Shown piece after piece: positions 1-64,000 of a DNA stretch of 64,000 nucleotides; the first letter of the stretch is position 1, and the number at the start of each line of letters is the position of its first letter. Under the pieces are notes generated by a model. That model made no database searches. It was given only the letters and a program-made list of their open reading frames with translations, and had not been told where the DNA came from. The stretch comes from Corallococcus macrosporus DSM 14697. Lineage in GTDB: Bacteria > Myxococcota > Myxococcia > Myxococcales > Myxococcaceae. The stretch spans positions 8,691,001 to 8,755,000 of the forward strand of contig NZ_CP022203.1 in the NCBI RefSeq assembly GCF_002305895.1. The letters run 5' to 3'. The position numbers were made by a program, and so were the translations under genes.

Positions 1-1225
1 CAATGCCCCGGTAGTTGTAGGACGTCAGCCCGCCCTGACGGACATGGAACGCCTCGTGGATGAGGAACAGCCGCAGGCACTCCTTCCAGTCCTCTTGCGA
101 CTGGAGCCGCTTGAGCAGCGCGCCCAGCCCCAGCAGCAGCTCCCAGTCGAGCTTCCACTTCCCCGCCCCATGGCGGAACAGCGGCGTGCGCTCGTAGGCG
201 GGCTCGTCCTCGATTTCGCTGCGCAGGTAGGCCTGCCCGTCGATGTGCTCGACGAAGGGCTGCTGCTCGGGCTCCTTGAGCCAGGAGACCAGCTCCTTGT
301 GGACCTTCTGGACCTCCCGGAGCACCCGCATGGCGGTGAGCTTGTCGTCCGCGGTGGGGACCCGTGGCGCCACGTCGCGGCGAGCCCGGATGACATGAAC
401 CCTGTCGTAGAGCTGCCGCTCCGCGTTGAAGTGGAGGAGCGTCAGCGGGTGCTGGGTGGTGGGATTGACGGCCGTCCCCAGGGCCGCGGCGAAGCTGCCG
501 GGCGCGTCGATGGCCAGGACCACGGACTCGGCGCCCTCCAGCAGCTCATGCAACTTGTCGAGCACCTCCCGGAACTGCGCCGCCGCGCGCGCCGCCTGCC
601 CCGGATTCTGGACCGCCGTGGGAGACGGCCCCGCCGCGGGCCGGAGGCAGACCGTCGTCAGGATGGACGCCTCCGGCAGCCACGCCGACACCTTGGAGCG
701 GACATTGTCCCGGATGGCGCGCGTCACCTCGACGACCAGCAGGACATGGCCCCTTCCGCCTTGCCGACCGGAGGGCAGCCCCTCCACCTGGAAGAAGTCC
801 TCCGCCGACGGCGCGGTCATCCGGTCATACCCCAGCGACCAGGAGCCATCCTGCGCCTGCTGATAGACGCAGACAGGCCGGCGCGGCAGCCGCGAGGCCA
901 GCTCGAGCATCAGCGCCAGGGGCGCGCACCCGAAGATGTGGACGGGCAGGTGGTCCAGGTGCAGCTCCGCCTCCCGCTTGAGGAGCGCCGCCGCGAACCG
1001 CTCGTGCTCGCTGAAGGCCTCGCTCCAGTCCTGCCCTGGGAGGCTCCGAGCGGCCCGGGCCGGGTCGTGCGGGTGCAGGACGACGGAGGCCACGTCACGG
1101 TCTCCCTCCAGGCCGTACCGAATCAGGGTGTCCCGCGCCGTGGCCTCGATGACGGGCCGGTCCTGCTCGTAGCGCACGATGAGCGCGCGCGTCCTCGGGG
1201 TGATGGGGATGTCCTCGCTCCGCAT
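1..1225 (-). CDS. SAVED-domain protein with C-terminal HExxH metallopeptidase motif, putative CBASS effector (3' end outside window)
   Basis: The frame is open from an ATG at 1225 to the window edge (408 residues visible, no stop). Seen: two CARF-like half-repeats typical of SAVED, one around residues 95-121 (HIFGCAPLALMLELASR, then VCVYQ) and one around 234-268 (VVLAIDAPGSFAAALGTAV, then LLHF). A helical linker follows, and the motif HEAFH lies at 390-394, a zincin-type Zn site with the catalytic Glu inside. Known: SAVED binds cyclic oligonucleotides made by CD-NTases and switches on a fused effector. Inferred: nucleotide binding activates a metalloprotease-like domain. The order (SAVED first, effector second) is the reverse of most SAVED nucleases. 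The gene lies about 100 nt downstream of a CD-NTase on the same strand. An AGGAGAGG ribosome site before the ATG supports this start. The third Zn ligand must lie to the left of the window. Confidence 0.75.
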   Translation of the reverse strand, partial: MRSEDIPITPRTRALIVRYEQDRPVIEATARDTLIRYGLEGDRDVASVVLHPHDPARAARSLPGQDWSEAFSEHERFAAALLKREAELHLDHLPVHIFGCAPLALMLELASRLPRRPVCVYQQAQDGSWSLGYDRMTAPSAEDFFQVEGLPSGRQGGRGHVLLVVEVTRAIRDNVRSKVSAWLPEASILTTVCLRPAAGPSPTAVQNPGQAARAAAQFREVLDKLHELLEGAESVVLAIDAPGSFAAALGTAVNPTTQHPLTLLHFNAERQLYDRVHVIRARRDVAPRVPTADDKLTAMRVLREVQKVHKELVSWLKEPEQQPFVEHIDGQAYLRSEIEDEPAYERTPLFRHGAGKWKLDWELLLGLGALLKRLQSQEDWKECLRLFLIHEAFHVRQGGLTSYNYRGI

Positions 1226-1326
1226 GTCCTCTCCTGGAAGGGGCTTCACCAGAGAGGACGCGAAAAAGGCAGAGGAGCCATCGCAGCCCCTGCGCTTTTT
1301 TCAGGCGAAGGCTACAAACCGCTCGG

Positions 1327-2262
1327 TCAGTAGCCCTGATAGAGGTCCGGGAAGAGCTTCTTCATGCGAGCATGCGCTCTCGCGGGATGGGTGTCCTGCT
1401 CCTCCCTGGCCAGACGAACTTCCCTCGCAGCGCCATCCAGGAGCTGGCTGGCCGCGGACCTCTGACTTGGGCTCAGGTACACATCGACGTCGTCGCCGAG
1501 TTCCGCCGGGTCTGTACAGCGGTTCATGACGCCGCGGGCGAGGTGAGCGAACAACGTCTCCAGCGACTCTAGATGCCCCGATTCCCGTGACAAGCGGGGA
1601 AGCTGGACGCTGTAGCTCATGACCTCCAGATGAAAGGACTTCAGAGGACTGTGCTGCTTCCGATTCCAGTGCTTCACGAGCTTGATGAGGGAGTGGAGCC
1701 TCCCTTCGCACCGTTTGTTGGCGGTGGCACAGGCCTCCTGGTGTCTGCGGGGGTCTGTTCGAACCCACTTCTCCTCGGACTGGTCCTTCTTCCGCTCGGG
1801 AATCAGATATCCCGGCCCATTCGAGCAAGCGTAAGCCGGAATGACATCGAACTGGATGGGTGTCTCCTCGAACTCCACGCGCACGGAATGCAGCTGGATG
1901 GCGGGCATGTTTCGCCTGGGAATTTCCTTATGGATTCCATCCCGGAGTTCCCGGAGCGCATCTGAAGGGAGCAGCGGCCGCGCGGGAGCCGCCGTCATCA
2001 GAACGTCCCCAAGCACGATGAAGAAGTCGATGTCGTTCAGGGGCCGGATGGACGTACCGCGTCCGTAGGACCCCGAAAGGAAATCCGTCTTGGGACCGAA
2101 TACAGCCCGCAGGCGCTGCTGGACCTCTTGCATGCGCGCAGTCACCCGTCGGTGCTGTTCAGGTGGCAACTCCAAAGATTCGATGGCCTCTTGAAGGGCG
2201 TGCCCCACGCTTCGCATAACGCGCCTCGCTGGAAATTCGTTGTCCAAGAACAAGGACGCCAA
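1327..2262 (-). CDS. CD-NTase (cGAS/DncV-like nucleotidyltransferase) of a CBASS system
   Basis: Synthesises a cyclic di- or trinucleotide alarm signal from NTPs when phage infection is sensed. Seen: the nucleotidyltransferase signature GSYGRGT at residues 64-70, the metal-binding pair D77 and D79 (NDIDFF), and a third carboxylate D139 (IQFDVIPAY). This is the SMODS arrangement, followed by a helical C-terminal half; 311 residues is usual for the family. The extreme start is uncertain: the longest reading starts at a TTG at 2262, but an in-frame ATG 14 codons in (2220) has an AGG-type site and would still keep the whole catalytic core. It lies 81 nt after the small kinase and about 100 nt before the SAVED gene, all on one strand. 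The clade and the product nucleotide cannot be told by eye. Confidence 0.85.
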   Translation of the reverse strand: MASLFLDNEFPARRVMRSVGHALQEAIESLELPPEQHRRVTARMQEVQQRLRAVFGPKTDFLSGSYGRGTSIRPLNDIDFFIVLGDVLMTAAPARPLLPSDALRELRDGIHKEIPRRNMPAIQLHSVRVEFEETPIQFDVIPAYACSNGPGYLIPERKKDQSEEKWVRTDPRRHQEACATANKRCEGRLHSLIKLVKHWNRKQHSPLKSFHLEVMSYSVQLPRLSRESGHLESLETLFAHLARGVMNRCTDPAELGDDVDVYLSPSQRSAASQLLDGAAREVRLAREEQDTHPARAHARMKKLFPDLYQGY

Positions 2263-2343
2263 ACGTGACGCGATGGCATCGCGGCGTGTTCACCCATTTC
2301 AGTCACCGGCCTCACCTACACACGGCGACATCCCTTGGAACAC

Positions 2344-3201
2344 TCAACGGAAGACCAGGCCAGCCACACACTCACGCACCTCCATGAGTGGCGGTCGAGT
2401 TCCCGCCGCTTTCGCCATCATCCGCCCCAGCAGACCTCGGAGCGATGCTGGGACCTCGTCCCCCAACAGGTGCAGTGGTGGGGGCATCCGCAAGTGACGG
2501 ATCATCAACTCCTTCTGGGTTCCGCCCCCGAACGGCAACTGTCCCGCGAGTAACTGGAACCCGAGAACGCCCAGCGAATAGACATCGACTCGGGCATCCA
2601 CGCGCTTGGCATCAAGCCACTGCTCCGGGGCCATGAAGTCCCATGAGCCCAGGACGGCGGTCCCCGCGGTCGATACAGGCAGCGCCGCAGGCGCCTCCGG
2701 TCCGGTGGCCACTCGCTTGGCGAGCCCCAGGTCCGCCAGCTTCACGGTGACGTCCTCCGCGTCCAGACGCGCCACCAGGATGTTCGCGGGCTTCACGTCA
2801 CGATGAATGAGTCCATGGACGTGCAACGCGTCCAGTGCCGCCGCAACCTGACCTAGCACCTCCGCGCAAGTCCGAACGGGGAGGCACCCTCCCGCGCGCG
2901 CAAGCGCTTGCTCCAGGTCCGTTGGAAGCCATTCAAGGACGATGAATGGCGGCCCATCCGGGAGCAGCCCCAGATCGAGCGCACGAACCAGTCCGGGATG
3001 GCGGAGGTCCCTCAACGACTGTCCCTCATTGAGGAAACGCGCCACCAACTCCTCGTGGAGACAAGACGACGCGCTGAGCACCTTGACCGCCACCTGAGTG
3101 CCATCCACGGCATGCAGGCCGGAGTAGACATCACTGAACGCGCCGACGGCCACCCTTCGTACGATGACGTGCGCGCCAACCTGGGTCCCCCTGACCAGCA
3201 T
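2344..3201 (-). CDS. Small Ser/Thr protein kinase, cytosolic
   Basis: A bare Hanks-type kinase domain of 285 residues without a membrane segment or sensor domain. Seen: VAVK with catalytic lysine K40, HRDVKPAN at 133-140, the magnesium loop as DLG (157-159) instead of DFG, and APE at 191-193. The glycine loop is weak (AVGAFSDVYSG, first Gly replaced by Ala, third by Ser), so nucleotide binding may be altered, but the catalytic Lys, Asp and metal Asp are all present. Its ATG overlaps the stop of the sigma gene (TGATG), which points to translational coupling, so the two probably work together, for example by phosphorylation of the sigma factor. It is followed by the CD-NTase after 81 nt. Confidence 0.88.
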   Translation of the reverse strand: MLVRGTQVGAHVIVRRVAVGAFSDVYSGLHAVDGTQVAVKVLSASSCLHEELVARFLNEGQSLRDLRHPGLVRALDLGLLPDGPPFIVLEWLPTDLEQALARAGGCLPVRTCAEVLGQVAAALDALHVHGLIHRDVKPANILVARLDAEDVTVKLADLGLAKRVATGPEAPAALPVSTAGTAVLGSWDFMAPEQWLDAKRVDARVDVYSLGVLGFQLLAGQLPFGGGTQKELMIRHLRMPPPLHLLGDEVPASLRGLLGRMMAKAAGTRPPLMEVRECVAGLVFR

Positions 3202-4025
3202 CAGTCCTCCGTGCCGCCCGTCCCAAAGGGCTCCGGGGGTCGCAACGCCTGCAGGCGTCCTGCCCAGAGCAACAGCCTCTCCAGCTCGGGCGAACAGTCC
3301 GAGTAGCCAGCGGCGAACGAGACCGGGTCCACATCCGTTTCCGCGGCGAGCCGTCGCAGGTAGGCAAGGAAGGCGTTGTCCAACCGGCTCTGCTTCGCAG
3401 CGTCTTCGTCGCCGTCTCCCGCGACGCGCTCGCCGAGGAAATACTGCTTGAGCGCGCCAACACCGCGTTGCATCAGCGACGCCACCGCGTCCTCCGATTT
3501 GTCCATCTGAAGCGCGATGTCCTTGAGCGAATGACCATCCAGGTAATAGGCCTTCACCACATCGGACTGCCCTCCTGACAATTCGGTATGGATGCTCCGT
3601 ATCAACTGCAGGGCCTCCTGCTGCTGAGATACGACTTGACTCGGACTGCGCTGGCGCGTCGGCGCATTCCGCGCCTCATCCGAATCGAACGGCACCGCGT
3701 CTGACTCGTCGCGTTTCTGGCGCGTCGCGTGCCGGACCGTCTGTACCACCTGGGAGGCGACGACCCGCTTGAGCCACCCACGCAACTCCCCTTCCGATTG
3801 CCCCTTGAAGGTGGAAAATTGCTGGAGCACTCGCATGGAAGCCAACTGAGAAAGGTCCGAGGGCCGTGTCCCTCCCGGACCATAAGGTTTCCCATACCGC
3901 TTCGCATGCGCCTGGATGACATCATGGAAACGCGTCAGCAACTCCTCCAGCGCGGCCGAGTCCCCCTCCTTTGCCAGGCGAATCAACGCCTCGACAGACA
4001 GCTCCAACAACGGCGGCTTTTTCAT
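3201..4025 (-). CDS. ECF-like RNA polymerase sigma factor with C-terminal extension
   Basis: A 274-residue sigma-70 family protein. Seen: a region-2-like segment at about residues 14-105 (AALEELLTRF... LSQLASMRVLQQF... GELRGWLKRVV) and a region-4 helix-turn-helix at about 150-195 (VVKAYYLDGHSLKDIALQM... AVASLMQRG). About 70 further residues (YLRRLAAETD, YSDCSPELERLL) form an extension absent from minimal ECF factors. Known: ECF groups encoded beside Ser/Thr kinases are thought to be controlled by phosphorylation instead of an anti-sigma factor. No anti-sigma gene is adjacent here; kinases lie on both sides, 12 nt upstream and overlapping downstream. Inference: it may direct transcription of this same operon. 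Confidence 0.85.
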   Translation of the reverse strand: MKKPPLLELSVEALIRLAKEGDSAALEELLTRFHDVIQAHAKRYGKPYGPGGTRPSDLSQLASMRVLQQFSTFKGQSEGELRGWLKRVVASQVVQTVRHATRQKRDESDAVPFDSDEARNAPTRQRSPSQVVSQQQEALQLIRSIHTELSGGQSDVVKAYYLDGHSLKDIALQMDKSEDAVASLMQRGVGALKQYFLGERVAGDGDEDAAKQSRLDNAFLAYLRRLAAETDVDPVSFAAGYSDCSPELERLLLWAGRLQALRPPEPFGTGGTED

Positions 4026-4037
4026 GGAACTGTGAGC

Positions 4038-7000
4038 CTACCTTTCCTCGTCGGGGCAACCCAGCGGACGGAAGCGGAGATCTTCCGGGTCATAGAGGTG
4101 GAAGGCACGCGCCAACGCGCAGCGCTGTGCCCGCCAAGAAGCTGTCTGGTCCGTGACACCTCGCGCGCGGGCAAGCGTCTCGCTCCCGAGCAAGGCGTCC
4201 ACGAGCACCAGCGCATATCGCTTGTTCGGAACCTCCGCTTCCCGGAGAGACTGCCCCAACAAACGAGCCTCGGTGTAGGCGACGTTCCCTTGAGTGTATT
4301 GCCGTCTCGCGGTCCGCTCCGCGCCCACTCCAATGAGAACCCGCCCCAACACCCAACGATAGTATTGGTCAGCGGGCTGGGACTCGACGCACACTCGCGC
4401 CATCCGAAGTGCAGCGTGGAGCATGCGTTCCGCGGCATCCGGGTCCCCTTGCGCGAGCGAGACTTCCGCCCGGTGCGCCAGCGTCAGTGCCAACAGCGCG
4501 GACGAGTAGGAACTCCCCCTCGCGATGAAGGCATGAAGGACAATGGCCCTGTCGAAGAGCTGCGCGGCGCGCGGCAGGTGCCCCACCGCGAGTTCCAATT
4601 CCCCCAACTCGGAAAGGCTCACCGCGAAGCTTCGCACCCCGTCAGTCAGGTCTTGCGGATTCGAGGACCATGAGGGCTCCAGCAACGCGATGGACTCCTC
4701 GAAGTGAACTCGGGCCCGCTCCCAATTCCCGCGCGCCATCTCCACCTTGCCCAGCTTGGAGTGGATGAGTCCGAGGTCAAACTGGAAGGACCTGCCCACG
4801 GGCTCCAGGAGCTCTCCCCGGCGGACGTTGTCCAACGACTTCAACAGCCCCCGCTCCGCACTCGCCAGCACCTCGTCATGATACGCCACATCCGCCACCC
4901 GATGGGACAGGCTGACGTCCATGAGCAGCATCTCGATGCCCTCATACTCAGCCGGTGACATCGCGTTGAAAATCCCGCCAAACGCCCCCAACAAGGTTCT
5001 GCGTGGTTCGAGCGTGTTGGCCAGTCTGCTGAATCGCCAGTCCGCGCTGCCGACGACGGCATCCATGGCCCCAATGAGGTCCAGTTGAGTCGCAATGGAG
5101 CGCTTCTGCTCCTGCTTGGCGCGGAGCAGTGCCTGCTCTGCTCGCATTCGCTCGGCCTCCGCTCGAAGCCGCTCCTGCTCCGCTCGGGCTGCGTAGAAGA
5201 GGATGAGCAGCATGGCCAGGAGGGCCGCTGCCATGCCCCCCCACCTGAGCCGCGAGCGACGCTGCTCGAGCCGCGCGGCGGTGCCGAGGAAACGAACGGC
5301 ACGCGGGCTCGCCCGCCGGACCATGTCCTCAGGACCATTGAGGGACGCCCCCCCGCCACGGTAGTGGGCCAGCAAGGTCCCCGTGGGCAGGCCATCCCTG
5401 GGAAACCGCGCCTGCTCCCAGGCGCTCGCCGCGACCTCCAGGTCCGCGTGGCGCTCCAGCAGAGCGCGCTCCTGCTCAAGCCAGGCAATGAGCGAGGGCA
5501 CCCGGTGGAGCAGCGTCTCGTGCACGAGGTCCACCCGTTGCGCGGCTGGGGTATCTCCACCCGACAGCACGACGAGCCTCATGCCTTGCTCCACATCAGT
5601 GAAGCCTCGCGCGCGCATTCCCGTCAGCCGGAGCAACACCTCCTCCGCCAATGCATCGCCCCCCGCCGCCGCAAGGACCTCCTCTCGCGAACGCGGCCGC
5701 CGGGTATCTGGAACGCCGCGCCCCACCTGCACCAGGTCCAGGAGCAGCCACTTGGCGCGCTCGCGTCCCTCGGGCCCCAGTCCCGTCAGGAGGGCTTCCG
5801 CCTGTTGAGCCAACGCCCCCCCCACGCCCCCGAGCTGTTCGTAGTGCCCCTGGGTCAACGGCGCGCCGTCATTGAGGGCCCACAGCCCCCGGAGCGCCTG
5901 CCCCAGAAGCGGCAGCCGGCCCCCCTCATCCCTCGCGTCCAGGACCATGCGCGAGGCCAGCCCAGGCTCAAGCCGCAGACCTACATTCCTGGCGACCCCT
6001 TTCACGACGCGCTCCAGCGCGGCTTCCTCCATGGGTAACAGGGGAAAGCGAGCCGCGGCGTGGAGGTGCCGGGACAACGACGGAAGCTGCTCCATGCGGT
6101 GGAGAAAATCGCTGCGTACGCTCGTGAACAACCGCAGTGGAGAATCGCCCCCGGCAAGCGCGGTGGAAACGAGCGCATCAAGCACGCCCCGTTCGGAGGT
6201 GCTCAAGGGGAACACCTCCTCCAGTGGCTCGATGACCAGGAGTACCAGCGTGTCCACTGGGTTGTGGGCCGCCAGGAAGTCGCGCAATGCCCCCGGCCCC
6301 GTGCGCAGCAAGGCCTCCAGCGCCTCGGCGCGCTCGCTGCCCCCAGTGGGGTTGGCCTTGTCCAGCGCATGGGCCAACGCGCGAATCGGGACATCGGATG
6401 GCCTCAGATGGATGACGCGCCAACTCGGCCTTCCAGTCGCACCGGCGTTGCGGAGCATGGGGAGAAGCCCGGCCTGGAGCAGCGACGACTTCCCCACGCC
6501 ACTGAGCCCTTCCAATTGAATCCAACGAAGCCGCCCCGCGCGCGCCCTCTCCAGCAGTGACCACAGCGCATGGGTCTCCTCCTCCCTGCCAAAGAACAGC
6601 GCGGCCTGCTCCTCGGCGAAGGGGGCCAGCCCCGGAAGCGGGCAGCGCGCCTCCACGCCTTCCCAGGATTTGCCCAGCAATTCTGCGCAACGCGCCATTG
6701 TGGGCCGCGCCTGCGCATCCTTCGCGAGCAGGGAAGCGATGAAGGCCGATAGCGCGGTGGAGACCTGTGGTGCGAATCGCCGCACCGGAGGAGGCTCCTT
6801 CGACTGGTGGTCGATGAGAACCTCGCCAGGGTCCTCCGAAACGAAGGGCGGGCGCCCCGCGAGCAACTCGAATAGCACGACGCCCAATGCATACACATCC
6901 GCGGCCCCGTCCACTGAGGCCGCGCTCAAGAACTGCTCGGGCGCCATGTACAGATACGTCCCCATGAACGAGGACTCATGAGTGTGTACCTGCGTGGTAG

Positions 7001-7523
7001 CTGACGCGCCGCCCGAGAACTCCGAAACCTTCGCGACGCCAAAGTCCAGCAACTTCACCCGATATCCCGGTGCAATCGTCTCATCCGGGCAAAGGAAGAT
7101 ATTCTCCGGTTTCAAGTCCCGATGGACGATTCCCTGAGCGTGAACATCCGCTGCGGCCTGGGCAAGCTGCGCCCCAATGGCCAGAACCGAGGGCACATCG
7201 ACGCCCTCATCTGACCGCTGCATCCATTGCCGGAGCGTCAGGCCGCGCAGCAACTCCATGGCCAGGAACACGTCCGCGCCCTGCCGCCCGCAATGGAAAC
7301 CACGGACCACGCCAGGGTGGTCCAGCCGGACCAATGCCTGTCCCTCCTGGAGAAACCGCGCGACAAGCTGCGGATCCTTCGCGGAGGTGGGAGACAGCCG
7401 CTTGAGCGCGACCTGCTGTCCCGATTGCTCATGCACAGCGGCATACACGTGCGCCATGCCACCGCTACCAATGAGGTGAAGCAGGCGATACGGGCCAAAT
7501 CGCTCAGGGAGAGGGTGTTCCAT
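4038..7523 (-). CDS. Ser/Thr kinase fused to nSTAND-type NTPase, transmembrane helix and TPR-like repeats
   Basis: A 1161-residue multidomain signalling protein. Seen in order: kinase domain about 10-285 (GSGGMAHVY loop, K41, HRDLKPEN 134-141, DFG 160-162, APE 194-196); a P-loop NTPase about 300-690 with the FFGREEE entry motif (310-316), Walker A GLSGVGKSS (339-347) and a degenerate Walker B LVIEPLEEVF (429-438); the LVHETLLHRVPSLIAWLE segment (666-683), typical of the end of nSTAND1 modules; one membrane helix about 763-778; a charged coiled coil (780-808); and helical TPR-like repeats to the end. Known: STAND NTPases act as switch platforms, and several are antiphage sensors. The gene opens the leftward operon; 12 nt separate it from the sigma gene. 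The acidic Walker B is intact in the EE pair only. Confidence 0.88.
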   Translation of the reverse strand: MEHPLPERFGPYRLLHLIGSGGMAHVYAAVHEQSGQQVALKRLSPTSAKDPQLVARFLQEGQALVRLDHPGVVRGFHCGRQGADVFLAMELLRGLTLRQWMQRSDEGVDVPSVLAIGAQLAQAAADVHAQGIVHRDLKPENIFLCPDETIAPGYRVKLLDFGVAKVSEFSGGASATTQVHTHESSFMGTYLYMAPEQFLSAASVDGAADVYALGVVLFELLAGRPPFVSEDPGEVLIDHQSKEPPPVRRFAPQVSTALSAFIASLLAKDAQARPTMARCAELLGKSWEGVEARCPLPGLAPFAEEQAALFFGREEETHALWSLLERARAGRLRWIQLEGLSGVGKSSLLQAGLLPMLRNAGATGRPSWRVIHLRPSDVPIRALAHALDKANPTGGSERAEALEALLRTGPGALRDFLAAHNPVDTLVLLVIEPLEEVFPLSTSERGVLDALVSTALAGGDSPLRLFTSVRSDFLHRMEQLPSLSRHLHAAARFPLLPMEEAALERVVKGVARNVGLRLEPGLASRMVLDARDEGGRLPLLGQALRGLWALNDGAPLTQGHYEQLGGVGGALAQQAEALLTGLGPEGRERAKWLLLDLVQVGRGVPDTRRPRSREEVLAAAGGDALAEEVLLRLTGMRARGFTDVEQGMRLVVLSGGDTPAAQRVDLVHETLLHRVPSLIAWLEQERALLERHADLEVAASAWEQARFPRDGLPTGTLLAHYRGGGASLNGPEDMVRRASPRAVRFLGTAARLEQRRSRLRWGGMAAALLAMLLILFYAARAEQERLRAEAERMRAEQALLRAKQEQKRSIATQLDLIGAMDAVVGSADWRFSRLANTLEPRRTLLGAFGGIFNAMSPAEYEGIEMLLMDVSLSHRVADVAYHDEVLASAERGLLKSLDNVRRGELLEPVGRSFQFDLGLIHSKLGKVEMARGNWERARVHFEESIALLEPSWSSNPQDLTDGVRSFAVSLSELGELELAVGHLPRAAQLFDRAIVLHAFIARGSSYSSALLALTLAHRAEVSLAQGDPDAAERMLHAALRMARVCVESQPADQYYRWVLGRVLIGVGAERTARRQYTQGNVAYTEARLLGQSLREAEVPNKRYALVLVDALLGSETLARARGVTDQTASWRAQRCALARAFHLYDPEDLRFRPLGCPDEER

Positions 7524-7692: not shown

Positions 7693-8556
7693 ATGACCTC
7701 CGTCTTCGACCTCATCCTGCGCAGGCTGGTGCAAGGGCACCCCGACCAACTGCTCGCGCTCCTCTTCGGGGCGCAGACGCCGTCCTTCATCCGGGTGGCG
7801 GACTCCAGCCTTCCGCAATCCGAGCGGCGCGCGGACGCGGTCCTGGTGGTGGAAGCCCATGGCGTGCGCTTCGCCGTGGACGTCGAACTCCAGGCGCAGG
7901 CGGACCCCCACTTCGCGGAGCGACTGCTGGACTACACCGTCCGCATCCACCGCCGGGAGAAGTTGCCCGTACTGCCTGTCGCCATCTACCTCGTGCCAGA
8001 GGCCGAGGGCACACCACCACCCTACGGCTTCGAGTGCGCCGGGATGCGCGTCCTCACCTTCGACTTCCAGGTGATACGCCTCTGGGAGGTGGACTACCGC
8101 CAGCCCGCCTTGCAGGCAGCCACGGCCCTGCTTCCCCTCTCTGTCCTGGAATCGAACGCAGGCCCCGAGCGAATCGCCTGGGCGGAGTCCCGCATCCAGC
8201 AGGCCCCGAGCCTTTCGTCGGAGGAACGCCTAGACTTACTGGTGGTACTCGGCACGCTGGCGTCCCGCCGGTTCGGGCAGGACAGGCTCAGTCGGCACTT
8301 GAGGCACATCATGATTGATTCACCGTTCTGGGATGAGCTGCGCGCACAGGAGAGGGCACGGACTGAGGTCCACGAACGCGTCGAGACGCTGTTGATCTTC
8401 GCCAACGCACGAGGCATTCCCCAGCCGCCCGATGCCGAGGCGCGCCTCTCCCAACTCGACGCCTCGGCCCTGAAAGCCCTCGTCACCAAGGCGCTCACCA
8501 CCCCGGACACCGCGGCCACCGAGCTGCGCGCCCTCCTCACGGCGCCGAAGCACTGA
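7693..8556 (+). CDS. Rpn-family / PDDEXK transposase-like nuclease
   Basis: A 287-residue protein resembling the Rpn recombination-promoting nuclease / PD-(D/E)XK transposase-derived family. Seen: the N-terminal core with R46-A-D48 and the strand VDVELQ (62-67), giving the D...D/E-x-Q variant of the PD-(D/E)XK active site, and a helical C-terminal half ending in repeated small helices (LSQLDASALKALVTKALT). Such proteins are commonly multicopy and mobile-derived, and some act as DNA endonucleases. It diverges from the kinase/CBASS operon and converges with the ABC permease gene, whose stop lies 9 nt away. The neighbourhood fits a defence or accessory island edge, but no transposon ends were seen. 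Confidence 0.72.
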   Translation: MTSVFDLILRRLVQGHPDQLLALLFGAQTPSFIRVADSSLPQSERRADAVLVVEAHGVRFAVDVELQAQADPHFAERLLDYTVRIHRREKLPVLPVAIYLVPEAEGTPPPYGFECAGMRVLTFDFQVIRLWEVDYRQPALQAATALLPLSVLESNAGPERIAWAESRIQQAPSLSSEERLDLLVVLGTLASRRFGQDRLSRHLRHIMIDSPFWDELRAQERARTEVHERVETLLIFANARGIPQPPDAEARLSQLDASALKALVTKALTTPDTAATELRALLTAPKH

Positions 8557-8565
8557 CCGCGCCCC

Positions 8566-9378
8566 CTACTCCTTCACCGCCCCCGCCGTCAGCCCGGACA
8601 CAATCCGCCGCTGGAACAGCACGGTCAGCGCCACCAGGGGCAGCGTGGCCACCACGGAGGCCGCGGCAATCTCGCCCCACGGCTCGCGGTACTCGCTGGC
8701 GAACAGGCTGATGGCCACCGGCACGGTGCGCTTCTCCGGCGTGGAGAGGAACGTCAGCGCGTACAGGAACTCGTTCCACGCGAAGATGAAGACCAGAATC
8801 GCCGTCGTCGCCAGCCCGGGCGCGGCCAGGGGCAGCAGCACCTGACGGAAGGCCTGGAACGGCGTGCAGCCATCCACGCGCGCGGCGCGGTAGAGCTCGT
8901 CGGGCAGCGCCCGGAAGAACGACGTCAGCACCCACAGCGTCAACGGCAGGGCGAACGTCGCATACGGCAAGGCCAATCCCACCAGGCTGTCTCGCAGGCC
9001 CACCGCGCGCAGAATCAGGTACAGCGGGCTCACCGTGGCAATCGGCGGGAACATGCTCACCGCCAGCGCCGCGCTCAGCAGCAGGCCCTTGCCTCGGAAC
9101 TCCAGCTTCGCCAGGGCGAACGCAGCGGCGGCCCCCACCGTGAGACAGAAGCCCGTGGTCAGCGCCGCCACCACCAGCGAGTTCAACACCACGCGCAGGA
9201 AGGGCCGGCCCCAGAGCACGCTCGCGTAGTTCTCCAGCGTCAGGCGCGAGGGCCACGGCCGGGTCAGCTCGCCATCCGGCCACAGGCTCGTCAACACCTG
9301 CCAGCAGAAGGGCCCCAGGAAGAAGGTCAGGAACGCGACCACCGCCAGCGCGGTCCCCAGCCCAGGCCGCTGCCTCAT
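8566..9378 (-). CDS. Carbohydrate ABC transporter permease, MalG type
   Basis: The inner-membrane permease that pairs with the next gene (MalF type). Seen: a first hydrophobic helix directly after the start, about six membrane segments in all, and the cytoplasmic EAA loop (YRAARVDGCTPFQAFRQVLLP) that docks the ATPase. Its 270 residues match the MalG/UgpE group. Its start overlaps the end of the upstream MalF-type gene by 4 nt, so the two are translationally coupled. The substrate is probably a sugar or sugar-like solute; the sequence does not say which. Confidence 0.93.
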   Translation of the reverse strand: MRQRPGLGTALAVVAFLTFFLGPFCWQVLTSLWPDGELTRPWPSRLTLENYASVLWGRPFLRVVLNSLVVAALTTGFCLTVGAAAAFALAKLEFRGKGLLLSAALAVSMFPPIATVSPLYLILRAVGLRDSLVGLALPYATFALPLTLWVLTSFFRALPDELYRAARVDGCTPFQAFRQVLLPLAAPGLATTAILVFIFAWNEFLYALTFLSTPEKRTVPVAISLFASEYREPWGEIAAASVVATLPLVALTVLFQRRIVSGLTAGAVKE

Positions 9379-10253
9379 CGCGCCGCCTCCTCACGGCCGA
9401 GCAGCCGCAGCCACACCGCCGCCAGCACCACCACGCACAGGAAGGTCGCCACCGACAACGTGCTCCCGTACCCGAAGTCCCCCGAGCGCATCAGCGTCTT
9501 GTACGCGTAGATGCTCAGCGTCTCCGTCGTGTTCGCCGGCCCGCCCTCCGTCAGCACGTAGATGGCGTCGAACACCCGGAACGCATCCAGCGAACGGAAC
9601 AGCAACGCCAGCAGCAGCGCCGGCTTGAGCAGCGGGAGCGTTATCGACACGAACACGCGCCACGGTGACGCCCCGTCCACCCGCGCCGCCTTGTACAGGT
9701 CCTCGGGGATGCCCTGCAGGCCCGCGAGCACCAGCAGCGCCACGAAGGGCGTCGTCTTCCACACGTCCACCAGGATGGCCGCGTGCAGCGCGTACCCCGG
9801 GGCCCCCAGCCAGTTGATGTCCTGCCCGGGCAGCAGCCGGTTGATGACGCCGTACTCCGGGTTGAACATCCACGCCCACAGCCGCGCGCTCACCACGGTG
9901 GGAATGGCCCACGGCACCAACACCGACGCCCGCAGCAGCCCCCTGCCAGGGAACGCCTTCTGGAGCAGCAACGCCAGCGGCACCGCGAGCAGCAGCTCCA
10001 CCGTCACCGCCACCGCCGTGAAGTACGCTGTGTTCCCCAGCGCCGCCCAGAAGCGCGAGTCCCCCAGCAGGTACGCGTAGTTCGCAAGCCCCGTGAAGCG
10101 CCGCTCGCCGAAGACGAGGATGAAGCGGTGCAGGCTCAGCCACACCGCCGCCAGGATGGGGTACAGCGCCACGCCCCCCAGCACCAGCACCGCCGGCGCC
10201 ACCAGCAGGTACGCCTGCCGCCGCTCCCGCTCCAGCGAGCCCCGGGGACTCAT
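9375..10253 (-). CDS. Carbohydrate ABC transporter permease, MalF type
   Basis: Partner permease of the MalG-type protein downstream. Seen: an N-terminal membrane helix (AYLLVAPAVLVLGGVALYP), about six segments and the EAA loop LYKAARVDGASPWRVFVSI. I place the start at the ATG at 10253 (MSPRGSLERERR), because the upstream in-frame extension to 10394 is low-complexity Gly/Arg sequence unlike the family. The protein is then 292 residues. A 190-nt interval separates it from the binding-protein gene on the same strand. Confidence 0.92.
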   Translation of the reverse strand: MSPRGSLERERRQAYLLVAPAVLVLGGVALYPILAAVWLSLHRFILVFGERRFTGLANYAYLLGDSRFWAALGNTAYFTAVAVTVELLLAVPLALLLQKAFPGRGLLRASVLVPWAIPTVVSARLWAWMFNPEYGVINRLLPGQDINWLGAPGYALHAAILVDVWKTTPFVALLVLAGLQGIPEDLYKAARVDGASPWRVFVSITLPLLKPALLLALLFRSLDAFRVFDAIYVLTEGGPANTTETLSIYAYKTLMRSGDFGYGSTLSVATFLCVVVLAAVWLRLLGREEAAR

Positions 10254-10443
10254 GGCCGCGCCTCCCACGGAGAAACCGCCCTCACCAGCAACAGGCACAC
10301 CTGCCGCCGCTCCCGCGAGCCCCGCGGACGTAGGACCGCGCCGCCCACCGAGGGACCGCCCGCGTCCGCGAGCCGCACGCATCCAGGGCGCCACCGTGAA
10401 CCGCCCATCCCCCCCGCCCTTCCTTGGAAACGGTGGCTCAAGC

Positions 10444-11724
10444 TCACGGCCCCTCCCCCGTCAGGTGGTCCACCTGCCGCTGCGCGCGCTTCAGCGCGAC
10501 CTCCGGCGTGCGCAGGCCCGCCACAGCGGCGGAGAACTCGCTCTGGAGCACGTCCGAAATCAGGTTGTAGTACGGCGTCACCGGCCGGGGCCTCGCGCGC
10601 TCCACCAGGGGCAGCAGCCCGGCGATGAACGGCGCCTCTTCCCGCAGGCGCGCGTCCTGGTACACGGCGGGCCGCGGCGGGTTGCGCGCGTAGTGCAGCG
10701 CCAGCACCCGGTTGGCCTCCGGTGACGTGAGGTGCGCAATCAGCCGCGCCGCCAGCCTCCGCCGCTCCGGCGACACGTGCGCGTTCACCGCGAGCTGCCA
10801 CCCGCCCAGCGCCCCCGAGCCCGGCTCGCCGCTCACCGTCGGCAGCGGGGCGATGCCCACGTTGCCGCGGATGGGCGAGCCCGGCTTCTGCGCCTCGCTC
10901 CACGCATACGGCCAGTTGCGCATGAACACCGCGCGCCCCTCCTGGAACACCCGCCGCGACTCCTCCTCGGCGAAGCCCGTCACCGTCGCCGGGGACACGC
11001 CGCGCTCAATCAGGCCCCGCAGGTACGCGAGCGCCTCGCGCGCGGGCGCGTCATCCAGCAGCACCCGCCCATCCTCCGACAGCGCCCGGCCGCCGTGCCC
11101 CCACAGCGCCTCGTACACGTTGCAGGACAGGCCCTCGTACTGCCGGCCCTGCCACACGTAGCCCTGGAGCCCGGGCGTCTTCGCCATCGCCTCGCGCGCG
11201 AAGCGCTCCAGCTCCGCGTAGGTGCGCGGCGCGCGCGGCACCAGGTCCGTGCGGTAGTAGAGCACCCCCACGTCCAGGTACCAGGGCACCGCGTACGTGC
11301 GGCCCTCCACCACCACGGCCTCCACCGGGCCGGGGAAGAAGTCCTCGCGCAGCCGCTCGGGCGGGAACTCCCTGGACAGGTCCGCAATCCACCCCGCCCG
11401 CGCGAACTCCGGCACCCAGACGACGTCCGCCACCAGCACGTCGAAGTCCCGGGCCCCGCCCTCCAGCGAGGTGAGGAAGAACTGGTGCGCCAGGTCGGAG
11501 GCGTTGGGCAGCGCCTCGGTGACGAGCTCCACCCCGGGATTTTCACGCTCGAAGCGTGCCAGCAGCTCGCGGAACGGCTCCGGCGGGCCCCACAGCGGCT
11601 GATACTTGAAGACCAGCCGCGTGCGCCCCTGGGCCTGCTCCGCCGCGTCCTGCCGCCGGCAGCCCCAGACGCCCAGCCCCAGGACGAGGCCCAGCGCGAG
11701 CACGATGGAGGAAACGCGTCTCAT
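10444..11724 (-). CDS. Extracellular solute (sugar)-binding lipoprotein of the ABC importer
   Basis: Periplasmic or membrane-anchored binding protein of the family 1 (MalE-like) type, delivering substrate to the two permeases downstream. Seen: start at 11724 (MRRVSSIVLALG) giving a classic lipoprotein signal ending at WGC, then the mature domain with the family sequence around 55-70 (LLARFERENPGVELV) and the IADLSREF... WYLDVGVLYYRTDLV blocks. A longer in-frame start at 11748 would spoil the signal peptide. First gene of a three-gene unit without an ATPase; in this family a shared MsmK/MalK-like ATPase can be encoded elsewhere. Confidence 0.92.
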   Translation of the reverse strand: MRRVSSIVLALGLVLGLGVWGCRRQDAAEQAQGRTRLVFKYQPLWGPPEPFRELLARFERENPGVELVTEALPNASDLAHQFFLTSLEGGARDFDVLVADVVWVPEFARAGWIADLSREFPPERLREDFFPGPVEAVVVEGRTYAVPWYLDVGVLYYRTDLVPRAPRTYAELERFAREAMAKTPGLQGYVWQGRQYEGLSCNVYEALWGHGGRALSEDGRVLLDDAPAREALAYLRGLIERGVSPATVTGFAEEESRRVFQEGRAVFMRNWPYAWSEAQKPGSPIRGNVGIAPLPTVSGEPGSGALGGWQLAVNAHVSPERRRLAARLIAHLTSPEANRVLALHYARNPPRPAVYQDARLREEAPFIAGLLPLVERARPRPVTPYYNLISDVLQSEFSAAVAGLRTPEVALKRAQRQVDHLTGEGP

Positions 11725-11966
11725 GCGCGGGCATGACTCCAGCCACACCCACCCCCGTCAAGCCCGGGAATCCAGGTCGGTCCGCACGTCAACATCCCGG
11801 AAGTCTGGTGCTCCTGGGTGAAAACACACTTTTCAGACATCCAGGCACGTCCGGCAAAGACAATCACGCCCGGTGAGTCATCATGAACCAAGGGAGAGCC
11901 ACGATTCGCTTGGACGCTGTCTCAGCGGTATTCTCATCCAGGCAGGAACAACTGGAGGGGGAAGCG

Positions 11967-61460: not shown

Positions 61461-64000
<2,540 letters not shown>

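Follow-up and report, generated by a model that had tools for sequence, protein, structure and literature searches.

An open question is how toxic immune systems stay quiet until they are activated. In CapK+CapS, CapH+CapP and CapW/BrxR (PMC13373217), regulator genes are situated beside the immune operon, as in the locus presented here, and CapK is a kinase. These systems involve DNA-binding repressors and DNA damage, whereas our locus carries a sigma factor, Hanks- and STAND-type kinases and a dedicated promoter-like motif. Phosphorylation of ECF sigma factors is known from the ECF43 pairs EcfP/PknT and EcfK/PknS, in which the sigma gene lies next to that of a Hanks kinase. The phosphorylated Thr of EcfP occupies the third position of the sigma2.2 contact motif, and in EcfK both this position and the linker are phosphorylated (PMC8999054, PMC13147305). 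Our locus shares the neighbourhood of sigma and kinase genes, an altered acidic contact motif in which an invariant Ser takes the position of the phosphosite, further conserved Ser/Thr residues in the linker, and the absence of any recognisable anti-sigma gene. It differs in that the motif reads RPSD and retains one Asp, while STTA and QTTA of ECF43 are entirely uncharged, in that the sigma factor has a C-terminal tail and a second, STAND-type kinase is present, and in that immune genes follow downstream instead of genes for polymyxin resistance or a T6SS.

A SAVED-protease at a type III CRISPR locus is also known from CalpL/CalpT/CalpS, where it is combined with an ECF sigma factor, and from the SAVED-CHAT effectors. 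In contrast, the peptidase in our case is of an HExxH (M48-like) type rather than Lon or CHAT and is accompanied by kinases and a CD-NTase; no CalpT-like anti-sigma gene was found in the cassette. The type III-B operon of M. xanthus is reported to be controlled by an ECF sigma/anti-sigma pair (PMC11237760). Both cases thus connect an ECF sigma factor with a myxobacterial III-B operon, but here the sigma gene and two kinase genes lie within the locus. We presume that the M. xanthus pair is DdvS/DdvA. Finally, the PADLOC models C3a189 and SAVED_peptidaseM48 / Peptidase CBASS effectors strongly match two of our proteins, but they name single proteins and include neither a promoter motif nor a combined locus. 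No paper describing the combination of kinases, sigma factor, CBASS and type III-B was found in the open-access literature searched.

Gene content of the locus

The window, i.e., the whole analysed stretch of 64,000 nucleotides (G000:C1:8691001-8755000), is part of a genome consisting of a single contig of 8,973,512 bases, and the best relatives are Myxococcus and other Myxococcaceae. The initial annotation had reported five genes on one strand between positions 1327 and 7523; all five are indeed present on the minus strand, but the SAVED gene lies outside this interval and runs off the window edge. The first gene codes for K1 (4038..7523, minus strand, 1161 aa), which combines a Ser/Thr kinase domain (Pkinase, E 3e-45), an nSTAND1 NTPase domain (E 2e-82), a TM-like segment recognised as a hydropathy peak (aa ~761-779) and a TPR-like C-terminus with weak TPR matches. 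K1 aligns over aa 17-1124 with PADLOC C3a189 (E 4e-156), a model that carries no label other than "kinase", and is the sole protein of its type in the genome at E<=1e-60; we take the prefix C3a to denote a type III CRISPR accessory. It is followed by the gene of an ECF-like sigma factor of 274 aa (3201..4025, minus strand; Sigma70_r4_2, E 3e-8; sigma70-ECF TIGR02937, E 1e-14) with a sigma2.2 motif RPSD containing Ser56 and a C-terminal tail of ~70 aa, for which no PADLOC match was obtained, and by the gene of K2 (2344..3201, minus strand), a small Ser/Thr kinase of 285 aa (Pkinase, E 9e-39) whose gene overlaps the sigma gene by 1 nt. Next comes a CD-NTase of the SMODS family (1327..2217, minus strand; Pfam SMODS, E 3e-17; PADLOC Cyclase, E 4e-65). 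Its start codon is most likely ATG 2217 rather than TTG 2262, because the homologues begin there and TTG 2262 falls inside a conserved promoter-like motif. While the annotated junctions of 12 and -1 nt were as described, the gap between K2 and CD-NTase is therefore more likely 126 nt than the 81 nt given before.

The window contains only the 5' part of the SAVED-peptidase gene (2..1225, minus strand), comprising the SAVED domain (E 1e-18) and the start of the HExxH peptidase (PADLOC SAVED_peptidaseM48, E 1e-152). The gene starts with ATG 1225, preceded by AGGAG, and extends ~600 bases beyond the window edge. The DNA outside the window completes a frame of 617 codons, or 609 aa when counted from ATG 1225 as the likely start, and the C-terminal half of the protein contains HExxH and a Glu/Asp-rich second motif, both invariant in the homologues. 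The locus had initially been regarded as CBASS only; instead, the gene run continues on the same strand outside the window, with cmr1 (genome positions 8688823-8690298) starting 97 nt downstream of the SAVED-peptidase gene, followed by cmr2 (8687016-8688818), cmr3 (8685812-8687023), cmr4 (to 8685812), cmr5 (to about 8684889), cmr6 (8683413-8684483) and a CRISPR array of 63 repeats with 36-nt repeats (C1:8678532-8683018). Cmr2 was identified with E 1.5e-68; Cmr1, Cmr4 and Cmr6 exceed the NCBIfam cut-offs and Cmr3/5 those of Pfam. Between cmr6 and the array we found neither cas6 nor adaptation genes, which are not obligatory for type III-B and are reported to be often missing in myxobacterial III-B systems. 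Comparing the array with 50,697 phage records yielded no match.

Judged by its gene content, the locus combines a CBASS module with a type III-B CRISPR system. The former is represented by a CD-NTase with an intact catalytic motif and an adjoining effector with a SAVED cyclic-nucleotide sensor domain; because the gene run contains no E1/E2/JAB or HORMA/TRIP13 genes next to K1, sigma, K2 and the cmr genes, it is type I-like. The latter is represented by Cmr1-6 including Cas10/Cmr2 with a GGDD motif and by the CRISPR array. At the window end opposite the SAVED gene (62000-64000), the G+C content is 0.546, compared to about 0.70 elsewhere.

The homologues retain HRDLKPEN, DFG and Walker A of K1 as well as HRDVKPAN and D(L)G of K2. 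The catalytic GSYGRGT...DID and the third Asp of the CD-NTase are intact; its DID and the GGDD of Cas10 (VYAGGDD in our locus and all readable homologues) are present in every readable locus, as is HExxH of the peptidase in those loci where it can be read. Because the catalytic motifs are kept wherever readable, K1, K2, CD-NTase, Cas10 and the peptidase are all probably active. We had also considered a cyclase-dead Cas10 replaced by the CD-NTase, which is ruled out by the intact GGDD. The solved structures nearest to the CD-NTase are 6p8u, 6p82 and 6p8j (E 4e-23 to 1e-21), which are CdnD enzymes akin to producers of cyclic tri-AMP; the product might then match a cA3 made by Cas10. The peptidase domain has an invariant Glu and Asp in addition to HExxH and no Pfam M48 match, its name M48 being derived from PADLOC. 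Among solved structures, only designed proteins resembled it, with weak E-values, and no relatives were found in viral contigs. An AlphaFold2 model of the SAVED-peptidase (pLDDT 57.5, pTM 0.36) was too poor for a fold search.

Sigma factor and promoter-like motif

We compared 27 sigma factors from related loci. At the position of the DAED motif of sigma2.2, which contacts RNA polymerase, 20 of the 27 read RPSD; Ser56, Asp57 and Gln60 are invariant (27/27), Arg54 is present in 26, and the linker between sigma2 and sigma4 contains a nearly invariant (S/T)PSQ stretch. Aligned by eye, Ser56 coincides with the phospho-Thr of EcfP (within STTA) and T51 of EcfK. The protein thus likely carries a phospho-switch, with Ser56 as the predicted phosphosite. 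Because Asp57 of DAED is kept, we do not consider it a member of ECF43, and for the same reason it may bind RNA polymerase even when unphosphorylated. One homologous locus codes for sigma and K2 in a single reading frame of 487 aa (L047:6495-7913), from which the sigma tail is lost.

The intergenic regions share an element composed of an A-tract, CGCGATG, 17 nt and GCGTCC, whose GCGTC resembles the -10 boxes of ECF promoters. Motif 1 (2254..2283, minus strand; CGCGATG-N17-GCGTCC) is located in the gap between K2 and CD-NTase, ahead of the latter, and is the only perfect copy of the core in the 9-Mb genome, with the A-tract a few bases away from its usual position. Motif 2 (1256..1285, minus strand; TGCGATG-N17-GCGTCC), a copy with one mismatch, an A-tract and a T-rich spacer, precedes the SAVED-peptidase and cmr genes. 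It is overlapped by a hairpin in the CD-NTase-SAVED gap, the only clear result of a scan for sigma-70 and terminator consensus sequences, which we read as part of the promoter region; it is also possibly a terminator or attenuator. Allowing up to one mismatch, the genome contains 56 matches vs. 39 in the reversed control, which is of the same order, so a broad sigma regulon was not seen.

A strict form of the motif including the A-tract occurred 15 times in 96 genomes, 12 of these in the cassettes, and never in the reversed control. A relaxed form applied to 27 loci gave 24 sites, every one located in a gap of the cassette and on its strand; because some of the loci had served to derive the pattern, the counts in those loci are not independent, in contrast to the uniqueness in the whole genome. 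Twenty-one of the sites are followed within 220 nt by a matched cassette gene, mostly just ahead of the CD-NTase or SAVED frame, and the other three ahead of the peptidase gene in L052, L125 and L127. The motif thus also precedes the effector gene where this lacks SAVED (L052), and a weaker copy fills the gap where K2 is directly followed by cmr1 (L043). None of the 24 sites precedes K1, contrary to the shared ECF motif expected upstream of position 7523, and positive autoregulation of the switch therefore appears to be absent in the main architecture. No copy was detected in the gap from SAVED to cmr1 either, which suggests a single transcript of these genes. The motif further varies with the local sigma factor: Ser in the helix of region 4.2 is mostly combined with CGCGA(T/C)G and a spacing of 17 nt, and Gly with variants of the type CGCGAGG or CGCGC and a spacing of 16 nt (14:1 vs. 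0:11, with some spacings read by eye and the count ignoring phylogeny). Spacing as well as -35 variation tracks the clade of the sigma factor, and neither is independent of phylogeny. As regulator, likely phosphosite and putative DNA target can be named from the sequence and the motif is almost confined to the locus, the switch is testable with a small reporter.

Conservation and exchange of the modules

To find related loci, we searched 96 genomes of the family for the SAVED-peptidase and inspected the 20-kb surroundings of the matches. Lack of a conserved gene order had been named beforehand as evidence against the initial proposal, and here the proposal held: of the 20 related loci examined (L035-L054), 14 show the order K1-sigma-K2-CD-NTase-SAVED-peptidase, which is therefore not a product of chance. 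It continues into Cmr in our own locus, L035-L040 (L040 only into cmr1), L047 and L048, and lacks Cmr within 20 kb in L041, L044-L046, L049 and L050, although in four genomes of this set a same-strand Cmr2 follows 12-13 kb downstream (G059, G061, G069, G071). The other loci show SAVED-peptidase and Cmr without the front end (L042), K1-sigma-K2-Cmr without CD-NTase (L043), K1-sigma-K2 with the SAVED-peptidase alone (L051) or with a peptidase without SAVED (L052), and K1-sigma-K2-SAVED-peptidase followed by two CD-NTases (L053, L054). A further arrangement, K1-SAVED-peptidase-another NTase-sigma-K2, was found in L123-L127 (K2 not called in L126). A strict dependence of K1-sigma-K2 on the CD-NTase is ruled out by L043, L051 and L052. 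The genome of L042 contains K1-sigma-K2-CD-NTase on another contig (L137), together with a Cap4-like SAVED nuclease and an array of the same repeat.

A profile of the peptidase domain matched 26 of 195 genomes of the phylum, all within the Myxococcaceae family set. The sigma profile matched 25 genomes, all of them among these 26, and none of the 70 family genomes without the peptidase (Fisher's test over the 96 genomes of the family, p 3e-22, a value that ignores shared ancestry and linkage). The sole peptidase genome without the sigma factor, G070, contains only broken pieces of the peptidase. Of the 26 genomes with the peptidase, 17 contain Cmr2, compared to 5 of the 70 others.

The Myxococcus genomes share 93-99% identity in the ABC permease situated upstream of K1, whereas K1 itself is only 47-67% identical, indicating that the cassette was replaced repeatedly at one site. 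Between our locus and L035-L037, the SAVED-peptidases share 90-93% identity, compared to ~31% for sigma and ~45% for the CD-NTase. Pairwise distances correlate with r of 0.85-0.95 among K1, sigma, K2 and CD-NTase, 0.78-0.79 between SAVED-peptidase and Cmr, and 0.47 between CD-NTase and SAVED-peptidase, values that are not independent of phylogeny. From these correlations and identities, we conclude that the CD-NTase moves together with sigma and the two kinases, and the effector with Cmr; the distance from the SAVED-peptidase gene to cmr1 is 1-99 nt in nine loci. Upstream of K1 (window 7693-11748), a small gene and a flank coding for an ABC sugar transporter mark a hotspot of defence exchange in Myxococcus, and L131 carries a SAVED-CHAT CBASS at the chromosomal site matching that of our cassette. 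This locus is one of seven (L130-L136) with a second sigma-linked CBASS (L131:7829-15194 tested with Pfam), in the order SAVED-CHAT, short ECF sigma factor, zf-HC2/TPR/CHAT protein of ~990 aa and C25-like peptidase, mostly with a CD-NTase nearby.

Proposed mechanism and rival explanations

From the genes, their order, the catalytic motifs, the promoter-like motif and the co-variation, all seen directly in the sequences, we infer a mechanism that assigns promoter function, phosphorylation, an inducing signal, the nucleotides and a peptidase target. We propose, with a probability of roughly 0.6, that the locus combines immune systems under inducible control, with a kinase-gated sigma factor inducing the CD-NTase, the SAVED-peptidase and Cmr. 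In the off state, K1, sigma and K2 would be present at basal levels, the sigma factor presumably being inactive because its polymerase contact motif changed from DAED to RPSD. A signal reaching the kinase-STAND-TPR protein K1 would then lead to phosphorylation of sigma by K1 and/or K2, most likely at Ser56 and perhaps also in the (S/T)PSQ linker, restoring negative charge. The phosphorylated sigma factor would act on CGCGATG-N17-GCGTCC ahead of the CD-NTase and ahead of SAVED-peptidase-cmr1-6, possibly with transcription from motif 2 reading on into the array. The induced CD-NTase, together with Cas10 upon a match of crRNA and target RNA, would produce cyclic oligonucleotides activating the SAVED-peptidase. 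The initial suggestion that the sigma factor raises CBASS expression thus remains the best-supported reading, based on the near-unique ECF-like motif ahead of CD-NTase and SAVED, its variants tracking the sigma clade and the likely phospho-switch. A separate promoter and terminator ahead of the CD-NTase had been named as counting against it; a promoter-like site is present there, but of a kind that supports the sigma model. More tentatively, and at less than even odds, the cyclases of innate (CBASS) and adaptive (type III-B CRISPR) immunity would both be switched on by this one sigma factor and both feed the single SAVED-peptidase, uniting infection sensing, RNA-guided detection and proteolysis in one locus.

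The main rival, which we regard as unlikely, is a cascade starting with the protease as in CalpL/CalpT/CalpS: nucleotides from Cas10 or the CD-NTase would activate the SAVED-peptidase, which would cleave K1, K2 or the sigma tail and thereby free or activate the sigma factor, the promoters would provide positive feedback, and the kinase module would act downstream of the nucleotide signal. SAVED-proteases with ECF sigma factors are an established theme of type III CRISPR (PMC11417357), and such a cascade would agree with the co-occurrence of sigma and peptidase domain (25/26 vs. 0/70 genomes) and with their staying together without CD-NTase (L043, L051, L052), in reordered cassettes (L123-L127) or with a non-SAVED sensor (L052). 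However, SAVED-peptidases of ~90% identity pair with sigma factors of only ~31%, which argues against tight co-evolution of the two; a CalpT-like anti-sigma factor is missing, peptidase effectors of the same family outside the Myxococcaceae belong to CBASS without kinases or sigma (L062-L064), and the motif regulon in our genome seems confined to the locus. Feedback could even make the kinase-gated and the protease-first order both true.

It appears still less probable that another sigma factor or activator reads the motif, with K1-sigma-K2 controlling something else or merely sharing the island. The function of the motif is predicted from sequence, defence genes often cluster, and a different ECF sigma/anti-sigma pair is reported for type III-B expression in M. 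xanthus (PMC11237760), but the motif variants follow the local sigma clade, the motif stands ahead of whichever effector gene comes next, and K1, sigma, K2 and CD-NTase remain correlated despite cassette exchange between near-identical flanks. We consider it very improbable that a plain CBASS with a peptidase effector came to lie by chance beside an ordinary III-B system at a defence hotspot, with the front-end genes as passengers. The SAVED-CHAT CBASS at the same flank in L131 and the separate CBASS and Cmr genes of other genomes would fit this view, but not the close and correlated coupling of SAVED-peptidase and cmr1, the enrichment of Cmr2 in peptidase genomes or the apparent single transcript.

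Because CBASS and CRISPR are joined behind one effector here, one could directly ask whether both nucleotide-signalling systems use a common messenger. In several loci (L044:10740-12212, L129, L137), the gene after the SAVED-peptidase or CD-NTase codes for a Cap4-like SAVED/PD-DExK nuclease, an arrangement seen often, and two SAVED effectors may therefore share one messenger. Kinases and sigma are absent from the distant CBASS loci L062 and L063, which comprise a CD-NTase, an E2-like protein (assigned by eye), a SAVED-peptidase and a second NTase. The peptidase without SAVED that follows K1-sigma-K2 in L052 (L052:8839-12865) ends with an ISNTITGDN-type motif resembling the N-terminus of the next protein, and the two possibly form an amyloid-type signalling pair.
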